In this document: positions 23,208 to 24,425 of the stretch, one piece after another
Position numbering within the stretch: position 1 is the stretch's first letter
How the letters are laid out: each line of letters starts with the position of its first letter
Origin: Candidatus Competibacteraceae bacterium
GTDB taxonomy: Bacteria; Pseudomonadota; Gammaproteobacteria; Competibacterales; Competibacteraceae
Direction of reading: 5' to 3'
DNA: 36,576 nt
Assembly: GCA_003989075.1 (NCBI GenBank)
Contig: RXIX01000022.1
Span: forward strand, 1 to 36,576
Translations under genes and position numbers: made by a program
The notes under the pieces: generated by a model
Databases searched by the model: none
What the model was told of the DNA's origin: nothing
What the model saw: only the letters and a program-made list of their open reading frames with translations

Positions 23208-24425
23208 TTACTTCTGCGCCATTTCGCGGTAGGTGCCGTCCGGACTCCAGACGAACAGCGAGAAGCTGGTGTCCTTCAGATCACCCTTGGCATCCCAGCT
23301 CTTCGGACCGAGCACGGTGGGTACGGTATGCGCCTTGAGCCAGGCCGCCAGTTTGGCGCCGTCGCTGGTCTTGGCACCCTTCATGCCATCGGCGAGCGCC
23401 TGCAGAGAGGCATAGGCATAGAGGGTAAAGCCGGCCGGATCGAAACCGGCGGCCTGCATCTTCTTGACCACGGCCTGACTGCTGGCGATGTTGCGCGCTT
23501 CGCGCACCGAGGTCATGTAGGCACCGTTGACGAATTGCGGGCCACCAGCGGCGGTAACGATGGCCGGATCCAGACTGCCATCACCGGACAGGAAGGCAGC
23601 CTTCACGCCTTGTTCGCGCAACTGCCGCAGCAGCGGGCCGGCTTCGTTGTACAGGCCGCCGAAGTAGACCGCATCGGCACCGCTGGCCTTGATCTTGGTG
23701 ACCAGGGCGTTGAAATCCTTCTCGCCACGGGTCAGTCCTTCGTACAGCACCACGCGGTTGTCAGCCTTTAGTTCCTTCAGGCGGGTGCGCATGGCGTCGG
23801 CGATGCCCTGGCCGTAGGTATCCTTGTCGTGGATGACGGCGATCTTCTTGGCCTTCAGTTCCTTGACGATGAAGTCAGCGGCCAGCGGTCCCTGCTGGTC
23901 ATCGCGGCCGCACATGCGAAACACGGTCGGCAGGTTGCGCTCGGTGACCTTGGGGTTGGTGGAACCGGGGGTGATCACCACGATATTGGCATCGGCATAG
24001 ACTTCCGAGGCCGGAATGGTCGATGACGAGCAGAAGTGGCCGATCACCGCAGCAACCTTGTCCTGATCGATCAGGCGGTTGGCGACCGCTACGGCCTGCT
24101 TGGGTTCGCAGGCGTCATCGCCCTTGACCAGTTCAATCTTCTTGCCGTCGATGCCGCCGGCGGCGTTGATGTCATCAGCCGCCTGGCTGGCACCGCGCCA
24201 GAACTGCTCGCCGAATGCGGCATTGCCGCCGGTCATCGGCCCGGCCAAAGGGATAATCAATAAGTCGCGGAATAAGATAGCGCCGAATGCGGCATTGCCG
24301 CCGGTCATCGGCCCGGCCACGCCGATCTTGATGGTCTCGGCGGCACTGGCCAGGCCACCGCTCAGGCTCAGGCCGGCAGCCAGGGCTACGCTCAGCAGGC
24401 CGCGGGTAAAGGAGAAAGTAGACAT
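23208..24425 (-). CDS. livK: branched-chain amino acid ABC transporter substrate-binding protein, with internal insertion
   Basis: A 405-residue periplasmic binding protein (Leu/Ile/Val-binding family). The signal peptide is about residues 1-28 (LAAGLSLSGGLASA then AETIKIGV). The body carries AADDINAAGGIDGKKIELVKGDD, GHFCSSSTIPASEVY, VFRMCGRDDQQGPLAADFI and YGQGIADAM. After IKIGVAGPMTGGNAAFG one expects EQFWRGA directly; instead 24 residues (AILFRDLLIIPL plus a second AGPMTGGNAAFG) intervene. At DNA level these are two perfect 39-bp repeats around a 33-bp AT-rich core. The insertion falls in the first ligand-binding loop and may impair or change binding. The start at 24425 has GAGGAG at good spacing. 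First gene of the liv operon. Confidence 0.93.
   Translation of the reverse strand: MSTFSFTRGLLSVALAAGLSLSGGLASAAETIKIGVAGPMTGGNAAFGAILFRDLLIIPLAGPMTGGNAAFGEQFWRGASQAADDINAAGGIDGKKIELVKGDDACEPKQAVAVANRLIDQDKVAAVIGHFCSSSTIPASEVYADANIVVITPGSTNPKVTERNLPTVFRMCGRDDQQGPLAADFIVKELKAKKIAVIHDKDTYGQGIADAMRTRLKELKADNRVVLYEGLTRGEKDFNALVTKIKASGADAVYFGGLYNEAGPLLRQLREQGVKAAFLSGDGSLDPAIVTAAGGPQFVNGAYMTSVREARNIASSQAVVKKMQAAGFDPAGFTLYAYASLQALADGMKGAKTSDGAKLAAWLKAHTVPTVLGPKSWDAKGDLKDTSFSLFVWSPDGTYREMAQK
24209..24319. repeat. two perfect 39-bp direct repeats flanking a 33-bp AT-rich insert, inside livK
   Basis: Copy 1 is 24209-24247 and copy 2 is 24281-24319, identical over 39 bp with a 72-bp period. Bases just outside (24208/24280 and 24248/24320) differ, fixing the ends. 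The 33-bp core 24248-24280 is AT-rich compared with its surroundings and contains AATAAG twice. The net effect is a 72-bp in-frame insertion. Confidence 0.95.

Follow-up and report, generated by a model that had tools for sequence, protein, structure and literature searches.

Most of what is known about off-target integration by Cas1-Cas2 comes from overexpression and in-vitro experiments. The 2018 study of Nivala and colleagues reportedly also contains a few putative natural cases. In E. coli, the repeat was shown to be nicked in a staggered manner during adaptation, and gapped intermediates arise (PMC4081107); both the length of the spacer and the second site are set by the complex in the manner of a ruler (PMC13034035). 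The cut made by Cas1-Cas2 is staggered, therefore gap repair duplicates a target of repeat length around the new spacer. According to the accounts given of Nivala et al. (2018), overexpressed Cas1-Cas2 integrates outside arrays (as cited in PMC11788318), and such off-array integration occurs near sites resembling the IHF motif (as cited in PMC9456107). Ectopic acquisition inside arrays was described in Streptococcus thermophilus (PMC7999890).

The livK gene of a Candidatus Competibacteraceae bacterium, located in the window (the whole analyzed stretch of DNA, 36,576 nucleotides), carries an insertion of 72 bp. We consider it likely that this insertion arose when type I-B Cas4-Cas1-Cas2 integrated a CRISPR spacer at a non-canonical (off-target) site. 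As far as the events of Nivala et al. (2018) are described in the citing papers, the livK insertion is similar to them in that a spacer-sized piece was placed outside an array and a target of repeat length was duplicated. However, the system in those accounts was an overexpressed type I-E system, whereas the events reported here are natural, were detected in a type I-B genome, are situated in protein-coding genes and number three in one genome. Canonical spacer acquisition of type I-B takes place at the leader-proximal repeat and has in common with the livK insertion the unit size of 71-76 bp and the predicted chemistry of staggered cutting and gap filling. It targets the repeat, while the target here is a gene without a leader and with marginal resemblance to the repeat. 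The ectopic events of S. thermophilus likewise display an integrase acting away from the first repeat, but they still took place at a true array repeat (PMC7999890), unlike the one in livK. The off-target process itself is already known, and the three natural cases are new.

The repeat-core-repeat unit in livK

The livK product, a periplasmic binding protein, was assigned to Pfam Peripla_BP_6 by profile search (E=2.4e-61), and its closest solved structures are amino-acid and Leu/Ile/Val-binding proteins. No Rfam family was detected in the window. The features of the locus are as follows, with copies numbered in reading order.

23208..24425, minus strand: livK, open reading frame with ATG at 24425, encoding a branched-chain amino-acid ABC transporter substrate-binding protein of 405 aa; host gene of the insertion
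24209..24319, no strand: whole repeat-core-repeat unit of 111 bp, net gain 72 bp; probably a one-spacer off-target CRISPR integration
24281..24319, minus strand: target duplication, copy 1; residues 37-48, AGPMTGGNAAFG, following the original first strand ETIKIGV; 39/39 identical to copy 2
24248..24280, minus strand: inserted core, read as the captured spacer; encodes AILFRDLLIIPL together with neighbouring bases
24209..24247, minus strand: target duplication, copy 2; residues 61-72, AGPMTGGNAAFG, running into EQFWRG; modelled inside the folded domain

A preliminary description of this DNA had reported two perfect 39-bp repeats around a 33-bp AT-rich core, resulting in an in-frame gain of 72 bp with 24 additional residues and a second copy of AGPMTGGNAAFG. 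All of this was confirmed. The two copies are 100% identical, the GC content of the core is 36% (62% for the genome), and the livK translation gains 24 codons with no stop and contains AGPMTGGNAAFG twice. A perfect 39-bp repeat at a distance of 72 bp is far beyond what chance could plausibly produce, and the preliminary description was right to set the structure apart from both simple tandem duplications and ordinary transposon target duplications. The true duplication in livK may be 37 or 38 bp long, since spacer ends equal to the flanking bases by chance would lengthen the apparent repeat. With a 37-bp duplication, the apparent core length of 33 bp would become 35 bp.

The 24 inserted residues were present in none of about 110 LivK homologue rows of the alignment, some of which represent one genome taken from two collections. 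These rows include members of the same family with 76-85% identity in the best segment. At the DNA level, close relatives (those named are Candidatus Competibacteraceae) aligned to the left flank plus one repeat, and to one repeat plus the right flank, and the core was never matched. Judged from these alignments, the insert would have been absent from the ancestral site. The recent origin proposed in the preliminary description is supported by the identity of the copies and the absence from relatives.

Sister insertions and the type I-B system of the genome

A scan for short duplications with a core covered 2.49 Mb of the 3.40 Mb genome (73%), in an exact mode and in an approximate mode with periods of 40-160. 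When hits in repeat proteins, in a dispersed palindrome and in a tRNA pair were discarded, three non-repetitive duplications with a core were left in the 2.49 Mb.

livK: 39-bp repeat, 33-bp core, unit of 72 bp
Contig C40, 12651-12762, peptidase S10 gene: 39-bp repeat, 34-bp core, unit of 73 bp
Contig C56, 7088-7199, start of a response-regulator/HD-GYP-like gene: 38-bp repeat, 36-bp core, unit of 74 bp

Two of the three cores are AT-rich, with GC contents of 36% and 31% compared with 62% for the genome, and the C40 and C56 cores are each unique in the genome. The C40 insertion leads to a frameshift in the peptidase S10 gene, which also appears decayed further on. The same contig carries the distal part of the type I-B array some 12 kb away. 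An orthologue of this site was not found in the DNA search for relatives, therefore the empty site is based on the S10 motif read through the junction. In the C56 gene, the upstream copy retains the start expected from relatives (a conserved T before VLVVDD), indicating that the core is the foreign part. This core brings GGAG, similar to a ribosome-binding site, and an ATG. Judged by its sequence, the core apparently gives the frame disrupted by the insertion a new ribosome-binding site and start codon.

The unit sizes of these stray insertions equal the size of a CRISPR repeat plus a spacer, and CRISPR was therefore searched for in the genome. One Cas1, which is Cas1b-like, was found by profile search. 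The cas1 operon also encodes Cas4b, Cas6b, Cas3b, Cas5b, Cas7b and Cas8b, and a Cmr6-like gene adjoins it. An intact Cas2-like ORF between cas4 and cas1 was recognized by eye. As far as can be judged from the genes themselves, the type I-B adaptation module cas4, cas1 and cas2 is intact. Contigs C36 and C40 carry the type I-B arrays, with a 37-bp repeat (GTCTGAAGGCCTAATCCAATACAACAAGGATTGAAAC), at their ends, the leader side being on C36. The spacers of these arrays are 34-39 bp long (n=11 read), giving a unit of 71-76 bp, and the stray units of 72, 73 and 74 bp all fall within this range. The probability that all three units lie in 71-76 bp is ~1e-4 if periods are uniform over 40-160, the range of 71-76 bp having been picked post hoc. 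A control scan of 0.50 Mb of DNA from relatives, a small sample, detected no isolated unit of this kind. Apart from simple repeats, its only hits were a single dispersed palindrome pair and an approximate repeat with a 42-bp period (L029).

Around the livK insert, the duplicated target on both sides is of about repeat length (39-bp copies versus the 37-bp repeat), and the insert is of spacer length (33 bp apparent, or 35 bp with a 37-bp duplication, versus 34-39 bp in the arrays). Under a 37-bp duplication the three stray spacers are 35, 36 and 37 bp long. The apparent duplications of 38-39 bp exceed the 37-bp repeat, and their extension by chance has p=0.08 starting from 37 bp and p=0.56 starting from 38 bp. 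Compared with random genome sites, the three targets taken together displayed only marginal resemblance to the native repeat alone (p=0.06) and to 12 bp of leader plus the repeat (p=0.10).

Origin of the insertions and consequences for LivK

The reading as off-target spacer integration is based on the anatomy of the unit, the match in size, the occurrence of three events, the adaptation genes described above and the absence from relatives. In this process, type I-B Cas4-Cas1-Cas2 would capture a fragment of about 35 bp, probably of foreign origin, and would attach one end to each strand of livK, at positions separated by about 37-38 bp, rather than at the leader-proximal array repeat. Cas1-Cas2 chemistry would thus have acted on livK itself, and fill-in of the two single-stranded gaps would copy the target stretch to either side of the fragment. 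At livK the outcome would by chance be 24 stop-free codons and a core with a hydrophobic stretch, DLLIIPL, able to replace the first strand. Like events would have occurred in at least two more genes of the genome. The causes offered in the preliminary description were a transposon scar, a template switch and an assembly error; staggered integration by the Cas1-Cas2 of the genome's own CRISPR system, which fits best, was not among them.

The main rival is an assembly artefact, in which contig ends with an overlap of k-mer length were joined uncollapsed with unrelated sequence between them. The genome is a draft of 278 contigs, and such joins would likewise yield perfect repeats of near-constant length. 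All three repeats are 38-39 bp long, which is close to some assembler word sizes. However, an artefact predicts neither a constant core length nor that repeat and core should add up to the unit of the local CRISPR arrays in all three cases, with no other size present. In addition, N runs were absent from the first 1.96 Mb scanned, the cores were not copied from other sites of the assembly, and the livK frame remains open. We regard an assembly artefact as unlikely.

A search of the livK core against the genome, as proposed in the preliminary description, gave a single occurrence with up to 3 mismatches allowed. No exact match of this core was present in viral contigs or genome contigs, and its source was not found in plasmids or phages, the best plasmid match being 19 bp (E=0.9). 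The C40 and C56 cores gave weak partial matches only, at chance E-values, and a protospacer was found for none of the three cores in the phages, plasmids, viral contigs and genome contigs searched. These searches also bear on replication slippage or template switching, by which a duplication would arise with filler copied from elsewhere. Error-prone repair is known to produce duplications with filler. However, no template for the livK core was found in the genome even with 3 mismatches tolerated, and three independent events would have to share the same dimensions with none of other sizes, making this origin very improbable. Least probable of all is a scar of transposon or casposon excision with an unusually long target duplication: its direct-repeat layout would be like a target-site duplication, but those of insertion sequences are far shorter, and the cores are mutually dissimilar, have no counterpart elsewhere in the genome and yielded no common terminal sequence.

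LivK may have retained its function. It was modelled with AlphaFold2 from an alignment of 28 homologues (mean pLDDT 85). Gaps of this alignment at the first copy bias the model toward the answer that this copy forms a tail. Strand 1 of the model comprises residues 54-62, consisting of the core-encoded DLLIIPL and the start of the second AGPMTGG copy, and is followed by a helix at residues 69-88. Values of pLDDT are <50 for residues 1-48, where the signal peptide, the original strand and copy 1 are located. The model suggests that the LivK fold is kept, with the core providing a replacement first strand and the old strand becoming a disordered N-terminal tail. It also suggests an unchanged binding loop. 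The change in specificity considered in the preliminary description is not supported by the model, in which the second of the two identical ligand-binding loops is part of the folded domain and the first is a disordered N-terminal extension.

With considerable reservation, we suggest that CRISPR adaptation in this lineage might act naturally and repeatedly as an insertional mutagen. Type I-B integration would be leaky and place pieces of spacer size in genes, and selection would keep the functional protein extensions, as in livK, or new translation starts, as in the response regulator, that sometimes result. With three natural events in a single genome, including an in-frame change of a transport protein, the mutational cost and the evolutionary yield of CRISPR adaptation would become directly measurable. 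Any genome whose arrays are known can be searched for the signature, which consists of a duplication as long as the local repeat around a core as long as the local spacers.

Other CRISPR-like repeats in the genome

The start of contig C16 (positions 1-430, L129) carries an array whose 28-bp repeat (GTTCACTGCCGAATAGGCAGCTCAGAAA) is type I-F-like, despite the only Cas1 found being Cas1b-like. This array was rejected as the source of the stray insertions because of its 28-bp repeat and the Cas1b-like type of the sole Cas1.

The dispersed palindrome GTCATTCCCGC..GCGGGAATCCAG was detected at L120 (7868-8190 and 18368), L141 (1071), L191 (15281), L196 (12393) and L252 (5550). Its copies are paired or form short arrays, repeating every 58-62 bp, and some of them are separated by differing sequence. 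By spacing, this element looks CRISPR-like. The paired copies of the GTCATTCCCGC palindrome were rejected as sister events, since they belong to a dispersed element.

Lone degenerate copies of the type I-B repeat were identified outside the arrays at L114 (18657-18693), L176 (7299-7335), L240 (10091-10127) and L185 (10449-10485). In L240, a second partial copy is located close by. These lone copies are possibly CRISPR-repeat-like RNA elements, and one of them adjoins the cas operon.
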